Shown in pieces: positions 11,855-21,062 of a stretch of DNA of 21,309 nucleotides. The notes under the pieces were generated by a model. The model was given only the letters and a program-made list of their open reading frames with translations, was not told the origin of the DNA and did not search any database. The stretch is taken from positions 1-21,309 of IMG/VR virus record IMGVR_UViG_3300030110_000490, one strand, 5' to 3'. Position 1 is the first letter of the stretch, and each line of letters starts with the position of its first letter. A program made the translations under genes and the position numbers. The stretch comes from a virus.

Positions 11855-11958
11855 AAGATGATATTTGTCCTAAGTGTGGTAAAGAAGGTTGCATGTGTGA
11901 TCCCGATACTTGTGATTGTGAGCCAATAAACAGGGAAGACTTAGAAAGTGACCCTTAA
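11851..11958 (+). CDS. Cys-rich mini-protein, 35 aa
   Basis: The ATG overlaps the endolysin stop (ATGA) and has AAGGAG 11 nt upstream, so translation is probably coupled. The protein begins MKDDICPKCGKEGCMCDPDT, followed by CDCEPINRED. Six cysteines at 6, 9, 14, 16, 21 and 23 lie in the first 23 residues, starting with a CPxCG zinc-knuckle pattern. The C-terminal part is acidic. It may bind one zinc ion or a metal cluster. The function is unknown. It is the last gene before the terminator. The protein-like composition and the tight coupling argue that it is real. Confidence 0.62.
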   Translation: MKDDICPKCGKEGCMCDPDTCDCEPINREDLESDP

Positions 11959-12020
11959 ATAAGCTCTGTGAATTAAGGTAATGTACTTTTATAGGGCAGT
12001 AGTCCCGAAATTTAACAACC

Positions 12021-12067
12021 CCTCTCTATGGGCTTTAAAATGGCTCACAGAGAGGTTTTGTTTTTAG
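12021..12067 (+). terminator. Rho-independent terminator between convergent units
   Basis: CCTCTCTATGGGCT (12021-12034) pairs with GGCTCACAGAGAGG (12042-12055) around a 7-nt loop. The stem is 14 positions long, with one mismatch and two G-U pairs. It is followed by TTTTGTTTTT (12056-12065). This should end + strand late transcription. On the - strand the same hairpin lies just past the last gene (stop at 12070) but is followed only by GGTTGTTAAATTT, a weaker tract, so it may work partly in both directions. Confidence 0.88.
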
Positions 12068-12069
12068 CA

Positions 12070-12276
12070 CTACATTTTAGGTATAGAATAGTAATCAAGC
12101 AGTACTTTTAACTTATCTCTTGCATGTGCTATAGCATTTACTTGTTCATCTACTGTTTCCGTTAGTGTTGAATGATCGCCAACACCAACAGGACTATCTA
12201 AATAAATTTGTATCTTAGCTTTAGCTACTTCTATGTCAGCTTTATAGACTTCACGTAACGCATTAAGCAGTAACAT
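12070..12276 (-). CDS. Conserved-looking hypothetical protein, 68 aa
   Basis: This is the last gene of the - strand unit. Its ATG directly follows the stop of the DUF3310 gene (TAAATG). The GGAG of the Shine-Dalgarno lies within the end of that gene. The protein is helical, with the pattern LREVYKADIEVAKAKIQIYL, then SPVGVGDHSTLTETVDEQ, then a heptad-like stretch AHARDKLKVLLDYY. I have an impression of similar short proteins in marine phages, with the PVGVGDH-type turn, but no known function. A small helical hairpin is likely. Confidence 0.65.
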   Translation of the reverse strand: MLLLNALREVYKADIEVAKAKIQIYLDSPVGVGDHSTLTETVDEQVNAIAHARDKLKVLLDYYSIPKM

Positions 12277-12558: not shown

Positions 12559-12633
12559 CTATATAAATTTTAATAAATGTATTCCGATAACAAATAAATT
12601 AACTGCCCCATAAACAATTAAAATTGTAGTCAT
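12559..12633 (-). CDS. 24-aa single-helix membrane microprotein
   Basis: The ATG at 12633-12631 overlaps the reductase stop by one base (TAATG), with AAGGAG about 9 nt upstream inside the reductase gene. The stop TAG (12559-12561) overlaps the AGGAG ribosome site of the DUF3310 gene. The peptide starts MTTILIVYGAVNLFVIGIHL and ends with Lys-Phe-Ile. It is hydrophobic nearly throughout and long enough for one membrane helix. Perfect coupling at both ends and a coherent membrane-type sequence support a real gene despite its length. The function is unknown. Confidence 0.55.
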   Translation of the reverse strand: MTTILIVYGAVNLFVIGIHLLKFI

Positions 12634-14342
12634 TAACTGCACTCCTTTTGTCCTGTTTCTGGATCAATAAAACATGCTGACCCATCATGTTCTTCTTTAA
12701 TTGCTGGCTCACTTTTATTTAGAATACCATACCGTTTACCTGCAAGTCTAAAGGTAGTTACTCCTTTCAGTTTACCTTTCCATCCTCGTACATATACATC
12801 TTTAAATTCTTCAAAGGTTACGTTATCTCCTACGTTAATTGTTTTAGATACTGCACTGTCTATGTAAGGTTGGATAGCTATCTGCATTTTTATATGGTCA
12901 TCTATAGTTAAGTCTTCAGTTGTTTCAGATTTAATATTATAGTTAGCATATACATAATCCTGTAGTTTAATTATAACAGGACCATCTTCTGTTATTAATG
13001 TTCTGTCTACTTCATGTGTAAATACAGGTTCAATACCACTACTAATATTATCAGCCGTAAAACTTATTGTACCAGTTGGAGCAATACTTGTCAAGTGGCT
13101 ATTACGAATACCTTGTTTAGTTATTAACTCAATTAAATCAGTAGGAATTTTTTTAGCAAATCCACTACTAAGATACTTGTCTTGATTGTATAAAGGGAAT
13201 GAACCTTTTTTTACAGCTAAGTTAGAGCTTGCTTCTATAGCTGTATACGCTAATGTTTTTCCTATCTTACGTGTAAACTTTACTGCTTGGTCTGAACCAT
13301 ACCTTAGATTAATTAAAGTAAGACAGTTAGCTAATCCAGTTATTCCCAATCCCATTCTTCTTTTATTTTCAGCTTCAAGTTTTTGTTTAGTTAAAGGGTA
13401 GTTAGTTCTATCAATTACATTATCCATAGCTCGTACAACATGTGGTATGTCTTTTTTAAACTTATCGAAATTAAATCTACTATTAGATACATACTTAATT
13501 AAATTAAAACTACCTAACAAACAAGCACCGTAAGGTGGTAGTGGTTGTTCACCACATGGATTAGTAGCTTCAATAGTTTCACAATATTGTAAAGGATTAT
13601 CGTTATTAATCCTATCTATAAATAATACACCAGGTTCAGCCCACTCCCAGTTAGCTCTCATAATTTCATCCCAAAGAGCAACAGCATTTATTTCTTTATA
13701 TACTTTATTGTTAAAACGTAAACAAAATGGTGTACCTTTTATAACACTTTGCATAAATTCATCAGTAATTCCTACTGATATATTAAAGTTTGTAAGCTGG
13801 TCTTGGTTTTGTTTAGCTCGTATAAACTCTTCAATATCGGGGTGGTCTACACGTAAAACTCCCATCATTGCCCCTCTTCTATGCCCTGCTGATACAATTG
13901 TCCTACACACAGCATCAAAGATGTGCATAAAAGATACAGGACCACTAGCAGAGCTATCGAGACTAACAATCCTATCACCATTAGGCCGTATCCTAGAGAA
14001 ATCATAACCAATCCCACCACCTCTTCGCATTGTTTCAGCAGCTTGTGTAGCTTTCTCCATAATGGATACCATACTGTCTGTAATAGTTCCTGATACAAAA
14101 CAATTATAAGCTGTAACATCTCTTGGGCTTCCCATTGCTGATTGAACTCTACCTGCTGGCATAAACCTTTGGTTTAAAAAAATATTTTTTATCTTTGCAC
14201 GATGCTCTTCGTTATCAGCCATAGCAGCAGCATTTCTATGAGCAGATTCTTCAAAGCTTTCATTAGGTAGTCTATATTTATTAGCATGTAACTCATCACA
14301 AGCTGGTACTTGTGGGCCATACTTAATGTCTGGTATCGTCAT
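12633..14342 (-). CDS. nrdJ: Ribonucleotide reductase, class II (B12-dependent) (569 aa)
   Basis: This enzyme reduces ribonucleotides to deoxyribonucleotides. The signatures are FMPAGR (60-65) and the first redox cysteine Cys81 in TAYNCFVSG. NPCGEQ (261-266) carries the radical Cys263 and Glu265. Cys274 in YGACLLGSFNL is the second redox partner, and APTGTIS (421-427) binds phosphate. The C-terminal cysteines 557 and 568 (ACFIDPETGQKEC) match the mobile shuttle pair. No small radical subunit (NrdB) or activase gene is in the window. The length and the N terminus (entering directly at FMPAGR, without an ATP cone) fit the adenosylcobalamin-dependent class. The phage would then rely on host B12. 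It starts within the end of an 81-aa gene (20-nt overlap), with AAAGGA before the ATG. Confidence 0.92.
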   Translation of the reverse strand: MTIPDIKYGPQVPACDELHANKYRLPNESFEESAHRNAAAMADNEEHRAKIKNIFLNQRFMPAGRVQSAMGSPRDVTAYNCFVSGTITDSMVSIMEKATQAAETMRRGGGIGYDFSRIRPNGDRIVSLDSSASGPVSFMHIFDAVCRTIVSAGHRRGAMMGVLRVDHPDIEEFIRAKQNQDQLTNFNISVGITDEFMQSVIKGTPFCLRFNNKVYKEINAVALWDEIMRANWEWAEPGVLFIDRINNDNPLQYCETIEATNPCGEQPLPPYGACLLGSFNLIKYVSNSRFNFDKFKKDIPHVVRAMDNVIDRTNYPLTKQKLEAENKRRMGLGITGLANCLTLINLRYGSDQAVKFTRKIGKTLAYTAIEASSNLAVKKGSFPLYNQDKYLSSGFAKKIPTDLIELITKQGIRNSHLTSIAPTGTISFTADNISSGIEPVFTHEVDRTLITEDGPVIIKLQDYVYANYNIKSETTEDLTIDDHIKMQIAIQPYIDSAVSKTINVGDNVTFEEFKDVYVRGWKGKLKGVTTFRLAGKRYGILNKSEPAIKEEHDGSACFIDPETGQKECS

Positions 14343-17586: not shown

Positions 17587-19440
17587 TTAATGTGTGTCAT
17601 ACCAGTTCCTTCCTATTTTGTACTCTCCATCTAAAGGACAGTTAAGTTTAAAATATTTACCTGCATCAACTATAGATTGCACAATAATTTTACCTACTGT
17701 ATCTGCTTGAGATTTTAAAACTTCTACTTGGAACTCGTCATGCACAATAGCTACTTGCTTTGCATCTAACTTTAACTTTCTTATTCTTTGATGCCATAAA
17801 CACATAGCGTATTTCATTACAACTGCTTCACCTCCTTGTAAGTATGCACTTAATGCGAAGTGTTCTGATTTAATTTGAATTTTTCTTCCATCAAGTCCAA
17901 CCATTCTTCCAACTTTAGCAGATCTTCTTGCTCTAGCTTTGAGTCTAGCGAGTGCTGGTGTATTACTAAGGAAATCTTCTTTAACTTTTTTACCTCTTTT
18001 TGTATCTCCTCCAATGATTCTACCAACCTTTTCATCTCCTGCTCCAAGAAGCCATGCGTAGATAAACGTCTTTGCAATATTTCTATTTGACCATTGTTTT
18101 TCTTTTTCATTCCATTTTCCTTTGTCTATACCCATTGATTCTAAATTTTTATTATGTATATCACCATGAACTACTTCATGTGTATAAGCAGGATCATCCA
18201 TATAATGTGCTAAAATTCTTAATTGAATCCCAGCTGCATCAACACCCAATAAGACATGAGTATCAGGGTTGCTACTAATAAAACAAGCACGACACTCACT
18301 ACCATATGGGGAGTTAATACCCGGTATGTTTCCCAAGTTGGGACCATTATGAGACATACGATGAGTAATAGCCCCAATGCTAAACACGTTACCATGAACT
18401 CTATTGTCATTTCCCAAAGCATCTAACCATCCTTCTATTGTTTTAGATCTAGATACACACATTGCATACTCTGCAAGAGATCGTAAAGATTGTGGAGCAT
18501 TAGGTGCAAGCGTATCTAAATTCTCATCACACAACTGCCACCTATACTTTTGTTCTTCTTGAAACTCTTCTTCACTTATCGTTTTATTAAATTTCTTTTC
18601 TAATAAAGTACGATAACCTTTAGTTCTAATTGTAGGATTCCACCAAGGATTAAGTCTTTCTACTTTCTGTTTAGGTGAGTTTAAATTAAAATCTTCCCAT
18701 TCAATCCTAGAAAATGGGCCACTAACTTGAGTATAATCAGAGTCAAGAAACTTTAAACCTACCTTGGATAGCTCCCCATCTTTGGTATACCTTGGTGTAA
18801 TTTCTTTTATTAACTTAGGTTTAGATTTCATTTCTGATAGTATAGATTCTTGTAGAACATCTATTCGATTTGAAATTTTGGCAAAGAGTAAGTTAACCTT
18901 TACTATATCCAATGCAAATCCATACTGTCTTTGATTTTCTAAATAGTATTGGGTGTAATGTTCTATCTTACTAGCGTCTTCGCTTCCTAGCTCTTTGCCC
19001 TCTAACTTTAAAGATCGTGCTACCTTGTACGTTAACTCAACATCATTGATACAATAGTCTAACATTTCATTACTGTACTCTGTAAAGTCTTTATGTACTA
19101 ACTTAGGATGATTTAAATACTTACCCCAAGCTGCTAATGAATGACCTGCTGTACGATTATACTTTTGTAGTCTAGATATTAGTAAAGTATCTCGTACTCT
19201 TGAAGGTCTAATACTAATACCTAAAACTTTTTTAATAACTTGTAAGTCATAAGCTATAAAGTTATGTCCTATCCATAACCTTACATCTTCTGCAAACTTA
19301 ACGAAGTCATCAAGAGTATCAGGAGTCCAGCTATGTATCTCTCCACTGTCATAGTCTTTACAAACTATACACCAGATAGAGTTAACATTAGGTAACAGTC
19401 CGTCTGCTTCAATGTCGCAAACTACTGTACGTTGTGACAT
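17587..19440 (-). CDS. Family A DNA polymerase, T7 gp5-like (617 aa)
   Basis: The 3'-5' exonuclease domain comes first: Asp9 and Glu11 (CDIEADGL), Asp65 (GHNFIAYD), and Tyr129 to Asp133 (YCIND). The polymerase domain has motif A at Asp401 (LGVDAAGIQLRIL), motif B at Arg453, Lys457, Tyr461 (RNIAKTFIYAWLLGAGDEK), and motif C at His568-Asp569-Glu570 (AIVHDEFQVEV). The length is a little below T7 gp5 (704 aa). Tyr461 corresponds to E. coli Pol I position 762 and T7 Tyr526. Two conserved positions differ from T7: the motif A steric-gate Glu is Gln406, and the second motif B Tyr is Leu465. The enzyme replicates the phage genome. It starts 2 nt after the primase-helicase stop, with AAAAGGAA as ribosome site. 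Confidence 0.95.
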   Translation of the reverse strand: MSQRTVVCDIEADGLLPNVNSIWCIVCKDYDSGEIHSWTPDTLDDFVKFAEDVRLWIGHNFIAYDLQVIKKVLGISIRPSRVRDTLLISRLQKYNRTAGHSLAAWGKYLNHPKLVHKDFTEYSNEMLDYCINDVELTYKVARSLKLEGKELGSEDASKIEHYTQYYLENQRQYGFALDIVKVNLLFAKISNRIDVLQESILSEMKSKPKLIKEITPRYTKDGELSKVGLKFLDSDYTQVSGPFSRIEWEDFNLNSPKQKVERLNPWWNPTIRTKGYRTLLEKKFNKTISEEEFQEEQKYRWQLCDENLDTLAPNAPQSLRSLAEYAMCVSRSKTIEGWLDALGNDNRVHGNVFSIGAITHRMSHNGPNLGNIPGINSPYGSECRACFISSNPDTHVLLGVDAAGIQLRILAHYMDDPAYTHEVVHGDIHNKNLESMGIDKGKWNEKEKQWSNRNIAKTFIYAWLLGAGDEKVGRIIGGDTKRGKKVKEDFLSNTPALARLKARARRSAKVGRMVGLDGRKIQIKSEHFALSAYLQGGEAVVMKYAMCLWHQRIRKLKLDAKQVAIVHDEFQVEVLKSQADTVGKIIVQSIVDAGKYFKLNCPLDGEYKIGRNWYDTH

Positions 19441-19442
19441 AT

Positions 19443-21062
19443 CTATTCCTTTTCTTCTTTGTTAAGTTCAGTTAATCTTCCTGTTAGTTTGTTAAAATAA
19501 AGTGAAGAGGTTGGTCCTGTTAAACCAGAGAACCTATTCTTTAACACACGAATGAGTGTTGTGTTCCTCTCTTGCTCGTCTTGGGCTTGTCCATTTCTCT
19601 CCAACCCAAATACAAAATTGGCGAGTTGCCCAAGTCCCGCTGTTCCTCGTAAATCTGACAGACTCGTAATGCCCCCTTCTTCAAGAGGTTTCGTTGCCTG
19701 TCTTCTTGAGTGGGCCACAGCACACAAAACAATTCCGAGTTCAACTGCAATCGCTTTAAGTTTATGTCCGATTTCATCTAACATTTTCCTCTCATCACCA
19801 GGGTTATCCGATACCATAAAGCTAATGTGATCGAGTATTAAAAATTTACAATCACACCCTCGTACTAGGAATTTTATTTTATCTACGAGATAGTCTACTG
19901 AATTATCCCTAAACCTTTCCCCTAATGTGAAGACTCTGCCTGTACCCCACGTATTTTTGTATGCTTGTTCATACTCCTCATCAGTATACGAAGCATCTGG
20001 TAAGTGAAAAGGAATACTAGCATCACATGTCATAAGTCCATGTGCAGTATCCAATGTCCCTTCCTCAAGGTAGATTACACCAAGGTTAACATCTGTTGAT
20101 TTTAATACATGGTATGAGATTTCTCTAAGTACATTGGTCTTACCTATCCCTGTACCTGCTGTAATAATTATGAACTCACCTTCACGCATACCATAGGTAA
20201 TATTCTGAAGAGCTTCCCAAGGGTAAGAAAAGATAGCTTCTTTAGGTTTACTCTTAATCACTTCCCATATATCCTGTCCAGATAAAATGTCATCAGGTTT
20301 ATACTGTTCAGCCGCCCACCATAACCTGTTAAACTCTGCTGAATCTTTTTCCTCTAAGTATTTACCTGCATCTTTTTTATTTAACTTAATAACTTTACAT
20401 TTCTTAGGGAATAAAGATGCAACTTCCTTGGCTGCATTTTTACCTGCATCATCATTATCAAAACAAATAATAATGTTATCAAAACTATCGAGCCATTCGT
20501 AGTTTTTCTTAGCGTCCCTGTATGCAGAAGTAGCAGACCTGACTCCAACAGTAGGGTATTTACTTCCCATCATTTGGTATACTGCCATTGTATCTATCTC
20601 CCCTTCACATATTGTAAGATACTTACCGCTACTAGAAAACTTTGATGCCCCAAAGAAAGTAGCCTTGGTTATTGGTCCTTTAACAAAGAAATCTTTAGGT
20701 TCTGTTCGTACCTTATACGCTATAATATTCCCATCTTTTGTAGTATAAGGATAGTAATGTTTTATTACTACCTTATCACGTACATCCAGACGAACATCAT
20801 AAAATTTTAATGTCTCTTTCTTTATGTTACGATCATGTAATGAACCTACCTTTGTCTCCTTTAAATCAGGTAAAGGTTCAAAGCTTCTATTTATTTGTGC
20901 TTGCATAATAGGTTTTACCTTATCAGTTGGTGGTTGTGTTAATTTATTACAAGAGAAACAAAACATATGACCATCATCAAACAGAGTGTTAGCATCTGAA
21001 GACCCACAGACATCACATGAATATCTCCCTACCATTTTAGAAGTATTCGATTCACTCTTCAT
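19443..21062 (-). CDS. Primase-helicase, T7 gp4-like (539 aa)
   Basis: The N-terminal zinc ribbon has Cys16, Cys19, Cys35 and Cys38 (SCDVCG and FCFSC), as in full-length T7 gp4A, which needs it to recognise priming sites. The TOPRIM primase core has Glu154 (TICEGEIDTM) and Asp202/Asp204 (ICFDNDDAG). The RecA-like helicase has Walker A at 302-309 (AGTGIGKT), Walker B at 408-411 (LILD), and His451 near AVAHSRRQ. The order and the length (T7 gp4, 566 aa) agree. It makes RNA primers and unwinds DNA as a hexamer for the polymerase encoded next. Its ATG lies 11 nt inside the end of the small upstream gene. Confidence 0.95.
   Translation of the reverse strand: MKSESNTSKMVGRYSCDVCGSSDANTLFDDGHMFCFSCNKLTQPPTDKVKPIMQAQINRSFEPLPDLKETKVGSLHDRNIKKETLKFYDVRLDVRDKVVIKHYYPYTTKDGNIIAYKVRTEPKDFFVKGPITKATFFGASKFSSSGKYLTICEGEIDTMAVYQMMGSKYPTVGVRSATSAYRDAKKNYEWLDSFDNIIICFDNDDAGKNAAKEVASLFPKKCKVIKLNKKDAGKYLEEKDSAEFNRLWWAAEQYKPDDILSGQDIWEVIKSKPKEAIFSYPWEALQNITYGMREGEFIIITAGTGIGKTNVLREISYHVLKSTDVNLGVIYLEEGTLDTAHGLMTCDASIPFHLPDASYTDEEYEQAYKNTWGTGRVFTLGERFRDNSVDYLVDKIKFLVRGCDCKFLILDHISFMVSDNPGDERKMLDEIGHKLKAIAVELGIVLCAVAHSRRQATKPLEEGGITSLSDLRGTAGLGQLANFVFGLERNGQAQDEQERNTTLIRVLKNRFSGLTGPTSSLYFNKLTGRLTELNKEEKE

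Follow-up and report, generated by a model that had tools for sequence, protein, structure and literature searches.

In the standard family A DNA polymerase, Glu710 (E. coli numbering) contacts the sugar of the incoming nucleotide and is hydrogen-bonded to Tyr766 in the closed state. In the closed ternary crystal of the Bst enzyme (1LV5) the bond is found between Tyr714 and Glu658, and the same paper cites work in which it is minor for stability (PMC4256020). According to a simulation study from 2016, E710 and Y766 are "universally conserved" and, as a bonded pair, shape the pocket; in these simulations Y766F was wild-type-like, E710A and Y766A were not (PMC4882331). Work on the polymerase of a Thermus phage likewise takes E710 to be highly conserved (PMC9324360), and a study of position 526 in T7 phage takes Glu480 as the gate and leaves open the incorporation of rNTPs by leucine-containing (526) enzymes (PMC13228545).

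The window, i.e. the whole stretch of 21,309 nucleotides analysed here, belongs to a 24.6-kb virus contig and encodes on its minus strand (17587..19440) a family A DNA polymerase with a 3'-5' exonuclease domain, an ORF of 617 aa that starts with ATG. The ORF matches the Pfam family PF00476 DNA_pol_A (E 1.1e-40; 140.2 bits against a cut-off of 34.3), its second Pfam match is PF01612 DNA_pol_A_exo1, and its PHROGs match is phrog_17, DNA polymerase. It belongs to family A, since DNA_pol_A scores above the Pfam cut-off and the catalytic aspartates D401 and D568 are present. The AlphaFold2 model, with 91 window and locus sequences as input, has a mean pLDDT of 94.8, and its best VIA structural match is the T7 DNA polymerase 2ajq_F (Z 39.6, rmsd 2.3, 527 aligned residues); the fold matches listed are T7 polymerase, bacterial Pol I, the apicoplast polymerase and Pol theta. 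With the T7 polymerase fold and a near full-length alignment, the window enzyme is a T7-like family A polymerase.

Motif A reads DAAGIQLR (residues 401-408, 18217..18240, minus strand as for all features of this gene); D401 and R408 do not vary among the 91 sequences of alignment A1. By alignment, its Gln406 (18223..18225) stands at the steric-gate position, that of T7 Glu480 and E. coli Glu710. Motif B, the O helix, reads RNIAKTFIYAWLLG (residues 453-466, 18043..18084; R453 and K457 invariant in A1) and contains Tyr461 (18058..18060), which from the motif is T7 Tyr526 or position 762, and Leu465 (18046..18048), which from alignment and motif is T7 Tyr530 or E. coli Tyr766. The first-pass annotation had assigned the three residues to positions 710, 762 and 766, and rightly so. 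Residues 527-543, HFALSAYLQGGEAVVMK (17812..17862), placed by pattern match and model, form the N-terminal part of a helix predicted at 526-555. In this helix Ser531 (17848..17850) aligns with T7 Asn611 and E. coli Asn845, Gln535 with E. coli Gln849 and, three residues past Gln535, Glu538 (17827..17829) with T7 Gly618 and E. coli Ala852; alignments, scans and tree make Glu538 the candidate for a relocated glutamate. Motif C, His-Asp-Glu 567-569 (17734..17742), is intact, and nearly invariant in A1. T7 positions 480, 530, 611 and 618 were assigned by alignment to the T7 record, E. coli positions 710, 845, 849 and 852 by profile alignment to PDB 8oo6, and positions 762/766 and T7 526 from the motif.

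The window enzyme and the T7 gene 5 polymerase are thus alike in domain order, motif C, fold and Tyr at 762, but Glu480 is exchanged for Gln, Tyr530 for Leu, Asn611 for Ser and Gly618 for Glu. Furthermore, 36 residues of the T7 polymerase within 240-350, the region of the thumb insertion that binds thioredoxin as processivity factor, have no partner in the window enzyme, and its processivity factor may therefore differ from that of T7. Roseobacter phage SIO1 and its relatives (Zobellviridae, Cobavirinae, with Siovirus and Veravirus) have a Gln gate and Leu766 as the window enzyme does; the SIO1 polymerase is about 38% identical to the window protein, and according to the tree labels SIO1, ICBM2 and CRP-4 also have Glu at 538.

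The annotation of SIO1 includes a Cas4-domain exonuclease, a T7-endonuclease-I-like endonuclease and a ribonucleotide reductase. In the window, a primase-helicase (19443-21062) adjoins the polymerase, and downstream of the polymerase Pfam and PHROGs identify genes for a gp2.5-like ssDNA-binding protein, a Cas4-like exonuclease, endonuclease I and a ribonucleotide reductase. In Pfam the ribonucleotide reductase (12633-14342, 569 aa) matches through its barrel domain only; its best PHROG is phrog_84, and small unassigned ORFs lie upstream of it. The long genes on the plus strand stop at about 11850, and from 12070 on the replication genes occupy the minus strand; the sign of the GC skew flips at about 11900-12070.

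Veravirus-type polymerases (L351 and L353; also, for instance, L301, L347 and L324) are encoded by two ORFs, one for the exonuclease and one for the polymerase, which overlap but differ in reading frame, and in CRP-5 and ICBM2 of Veravirus the polymerase is split in two overlapping ORFs, unlike that of the window. This can be either a programmed frameshift or a true split. Two polymerase matches were obtained in 42 loci, some of them truncations or other splits; L149, L161, L190, L197, L369 and similar loci, which have a Glu gate, show pieces of about 175 aa and 445 aa in different frames.

To see how far the pocket of the window enzyme is shared, 2.9 million viral contigs were scanned with degenerate patterns for the Gln gate, for the Glu gate and for Leu/Phe at 766, all three yielding samples. 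Together with related loci and 22 individually chosen phage records, these samples amounted to 371 sources, counting the window and the record it comes from; 370 of them gave a polymerase match and 364 were typed. The 364 typed loci represent 353 distinct ORFs, and many are near-copies, so the counts are not independent. Written as gate/762/766, the sampled loci were Q/Y/L in 191 cases, E/Y/Y in 141 and Q/Y/F in 16, followed by Q/Y/M and E/Y/F (6 each) and by Q/F/L and a Q/Y type in which 766 is truncated (2 each). The Gln gate with Leu766 (Q+L) is not unique to the window virus. The first-pass annotation had suspected a clade-wide trait, which was borne out: SIO1, P12053L, ICBM1, ICBM2, CRP-4, CRP-5, CRP-9 and CRP-13 are Q+L, three Veravirus members are among the Q+L phages, and the trait reaches far beyond the window virus. 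Vibrio phage 1.208.B is Q+F, and T7, HTVC115P, HTVC103P and other phage records examined are E+Y. A 42.9-kb contig (L001) encodes a polymerase identical to the window protein, and the nine loci L002-L010, with 64-89% best-segment identity to it, are all Q+L, so this combination is not an assembly slip. All Gln-gate phage loci with a readable 766 lack Tyr766, and Phe is the sole 766 residue found with both gates in the sampled phage loci.

A comparison of the polymerase domains of 62 Q+L/Q+M representatives with those of 84 E+Y representatives revealed four positions that separate the groups fully: 406, 465, 531 and 538. At 538, a third change that the first-pass annotation had overlooked, there is Glu in 62/62 of the former and Gly, Ala or Ser in 84/84 of the latter. 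As for position 531 (T7 611, E. coli 845), Asn is absent in every Q+L and Q+M locus readable there, and is found in most Q+F loci. Over all sampled matches, the Gln-gate phage loci have Glu538 in 208/208 readable cases (186 QL, 6 QM, 16 QF; 9 unreadable), and the Glu-gate loci have Gly, Ala or Ser in 142/142 (136 EY, 6 EF; 5 unreadable); counting distinct ORFs only, the numbers are 198 and 141. The window polymerase, with Gln at 710 and Glu at 852, falls in the Gln-gate/helix-Glu group defined by these two residues.

The reverse search, a scan on the helix Glu alone and blind to the gate, gave a complete listing of 41 contigs, at least six of which had been sampled before (L003, L089, L332 and the contigs that carry L001, L002 and L004). 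The gate was Gln in 38/38 readable contigs, 37 by script and L566 by eye, and the other three end before the gate. Among window-matched polymerase-domain columns filled in 70% of the rows, column 538 alone predicts the gate perfectly for the 193 phage rows of the combined alignment. Enzymes with Glu both at the gate and at 538 were absent from the readable typed phage loci. Within the phage sample the paired exchange is strict.

Trees were built without columns 406, 465, 531 and 538. On a tree of 160 phage representatives the gate changes 7 times and residue 538 also 7 times; in the phage part of a larger tree with 232 polymerase-domain rows (193 phage and 39 bacterial) there are 8 changes of the gate, 8 of residue 538 and 8 joint ones, always together. 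These are quick trees, with many weak inner branches and some long-branched rows, and the change counts do not separate gain from loss. In 100 shuffles of the labels the number of joint changes never fell below 60, a weak control since kinship is ignored. For a sign test over well-supported branches there are four independent phage pairs, which all point one way (median p 0.125, not significant), and over all 232 rows there are eight, five in the same direction and three without difference (median p 0.0625, not significant). It seems from the trees that the paired switch arose more than once in phages.

The same exchange occurs in cellular enzymes. A scan for Pol I with DYSQIQLR, in one genome per species, found at least 113 stretches, by title mostly from MAGs of Alphaproteobacteria and other Pseudomonadota, with a few Patescibacteria and one cyanobacterium; these loci were typed by alignment. 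Among the 113 listed, Glu852 is present in 104 of the 105 that are readable (6 unreadable at 852, 2 untyped), or in 103/104 if the gate and 852 must share one ORF. The exception, L461 from a Gloeomargaritaceae MAG, has a Gln gate with Ser852, and the gate is Glu in the remaining seven genomes of its family. As a control, 20 alphaproteobacterial Pol I regions with a Glu gate, hand-picked among 150-odd listed places, have Ala (15) or Asn (3) at 852, with two unparsed. In MAGs of Alphaproteobacteria and Patescibacteria, Pol I with Gln710 and Glu852 thus shows the same exchange of gate and helix as the window polymerase, but unlike the latter it is cellular, has Phe at 762 and mostly keeps Tyr766 and Asn845; in the Gln-gate Alphaproteobacteria Tyr766 is kept, and Asn845 in almost all.

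Tyr766 was at first taken for the residue strictly coupled to the gate, as among the 364 sampled phage loci no Gln gate is found with Tyr766 and no Glu gate with Leu or Met at 766. This candidate was rejected because the bacterial Gln710 enzymes keep Tyr766, and Glu852 took its place.

Genomes were also selected on Glu852. In the first phylum scanned this matched 2 of 398 genomes, both with a Gln gate, the centre genome being one of the two, and in the Patescibacteria 51 of 379. The 32 loci chosen on Glu852 divide into 5 with a Gln gate (three of them from G001, G002 and G004, where this gate was known) and 27 with a Glu gate; the latter are double-Glu Patescibacteria, 13 with Tyr766 and 14 with Phe766. 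The Gln-gate pattern matched two of the 379 Patescibacteria genomes, G002 and G004, both within the 51 with Glu852, and did not pick up G753, the genome of L490, which has a Gln gate as well. Bacterial Glu852 thus does not depend on Gln710, while Gln710 is nearly always accompanied by Glu852. The double-Glu Patescibacteria could be intermediates: on the 232-row tree the Gln-gate Patescibacteria L447 and L490 are placed amid double-Glu relatives, which fits, without proving it, that Glu852 came before the Gln gate in this phylum. The Patescibacteria loci L495-L506 combine Glu710, Glu852 and Phe766 in Pol I, a second departure from the usual Tyr766.

The double-Glu enzymes raise the question of whether Glu538 has any part in the gate. 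Its job could be an unrelated one, at the minor groove, a metal or another protein, with a tie to Gln406 that is historical or goes through a third residue. That such enzymes exist speaks for this, as do other positions that vary between the gate groups, and the independent-pair tests did not reach significance. On the other hand, the eight joint changes in phages come from a tree built without the trait columns, and the Gln and Glu pair appears again in bacterial Pol I, far from the phages; we consider an unrelated job quite unlikely.

We prefer the reading that in the Gln-gate enzymes the family A pocket is wired in an alternative way and the sugar gate is not lost, and give it a probability of roughly 0.6. 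The paired exchange, its recurrence and the double-Glu forms in bacteria are observations. That residues 406 and 538 lie close together, that they interact or bond, and that discrimination against rNTPs is kept is what we infer from them. In the alternative wiring the function of the glutamate would be divided between the two residues: Gln406, nearly the size of Glu, would keep the bulk at the gate, and Glu538 would give the carboxylate or hydrogen-bond partner that Tyr766 and Glu710 offered one another, so that a Gln406-Glu538 pair would stand in place of the Glu-Tyr pair. Once this pair is set, Tyr766 and Asn845 would be dispensable, and in phages the released positions may have drifted, to Leu, Met or Phe and often to small residues. 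Bst Gln797, which we take to correspond to E. coli Gln849 and window Gln535, lies three residues before 852. In a simulation of the Bst enzyme Tyr714 is hydrogen-bonded to Gln797 (PMC12756729). The wild-type-like behaviour of Y766F in simulation (PMC4882331) fits the finding of Phe766 with either gate in phages. Several observations count against the alternative wiring: the double-Glu Patescibacteria, where Glu852 need not occupy the place of the Glu710 carboxylate; L461, a Gln gate without Glu852; the Gln-gate Alphaproteobacteria, which keep Tyr766, so that its loss is no general consequence; and the independent-pair tests, which fall short of significance. In a wider form of this reading, family A would have two interchangeable designs, the second with Gln710 and a carboxylate from 852, reached by about eight switches in phages and at least two in bacteria, by way of the double-Glu Patescibacteria, with Tyr766 then dispensable; the odds of this we put at about even.

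The first-pass annotation had instead suggested that sugar selection and fidelity may differ from T7; in this reading Gln406 and Leu465 would make one or the other laxer, with an effect on rNTP incorporation or error rate. Precedents exist: alanine in place of E710 or Y766 turns E. coli Pol I into a mutator (PMC4882331), E615G at the gate is among selected Taq variants that accept rNTPs (PMC4215692), and in simulation Tyr714 blocks a G-T mismatch (PMC12756729). The mutations studied shorten the side chain, however, which Gln and Leu do not, and Gln is about the size of Glu. The companion Glu538 in every readable Gln-gate phage locus sampled points to compensation. Moreover, a scan of the 2.9 million viral contigs for NNY codons at the gate, within the same motif, had 0 matches and hence turned up none of the small residues that such codons can encode; among NNR codons the scans covered those of Glu and Gln. 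We found nothing in support of a sugar selection that differs from T7, and a relaxed gate appears unlikely; a change in fidelity through Leu465 is possible. The annotation had named another glutamate in the gate as the finding that would speak against it, and Glu538 comes close to this on the strength of covariation. The Q406E variant it suggested would, as a single change, put two carboxylates in a pocket without Tyr766, and the result could mislead.

It is also conceivable that the altered pocket fits an unusual substrate in these phages, a modified nucleotide or base, like DpoZ of phage phiVC8, a family A polymerase matched to a modified base (PMC8599892). This is highly improbable given that the trait spans SIO1-like phages, Veravirus, CRP-9/13, many other lineages and cellular Pol I, and that no base-modification enzyme was found in the minority of window ORFs scanned with Pfam and PHROGs.

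In the open-licence literature searched, with its partial coverage, we found no report of the 710/852 exchange, nothing on E710Q or a glutamine steric gate, and only off-topic results for A852 and for Asn845/Gln849. By term search, A852 goes unmentioned in the paper on the engineered E615G Taq (PMC4215692), positions 710 and 766 are not mentioned in the virioplankton polA papers PMC9069017 and PMC6302109, nor are the gate, 710 or 766 in the Roseobacter-phage papers PMC6918029, PMC8528129 and PMC6775973. The window polymerase, with Gln406 and Leu465, departs at both places from the Glu710 and Tyr766 pair stated to be universal (PMC4882331). Because more than 300 Gln-gate loci were typed, this criterion reads as over-broad and gives no ground to exclude the enzyme from family A.

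Glu710 and Tyr766 are the anchors of models for the closing of Pol I, the rejection of ribonucleotides and fidelity, and here are more than 300 phage and bacterial loci without Glu710, a loss that a third residue nearly always accompanies. This calls for caution when a phenotype is read from one motif position, as with 762 in marine surveys. The role of the pair can be tested by a double-mutant cycle, an experiment that seems to have been done several times over in nature.
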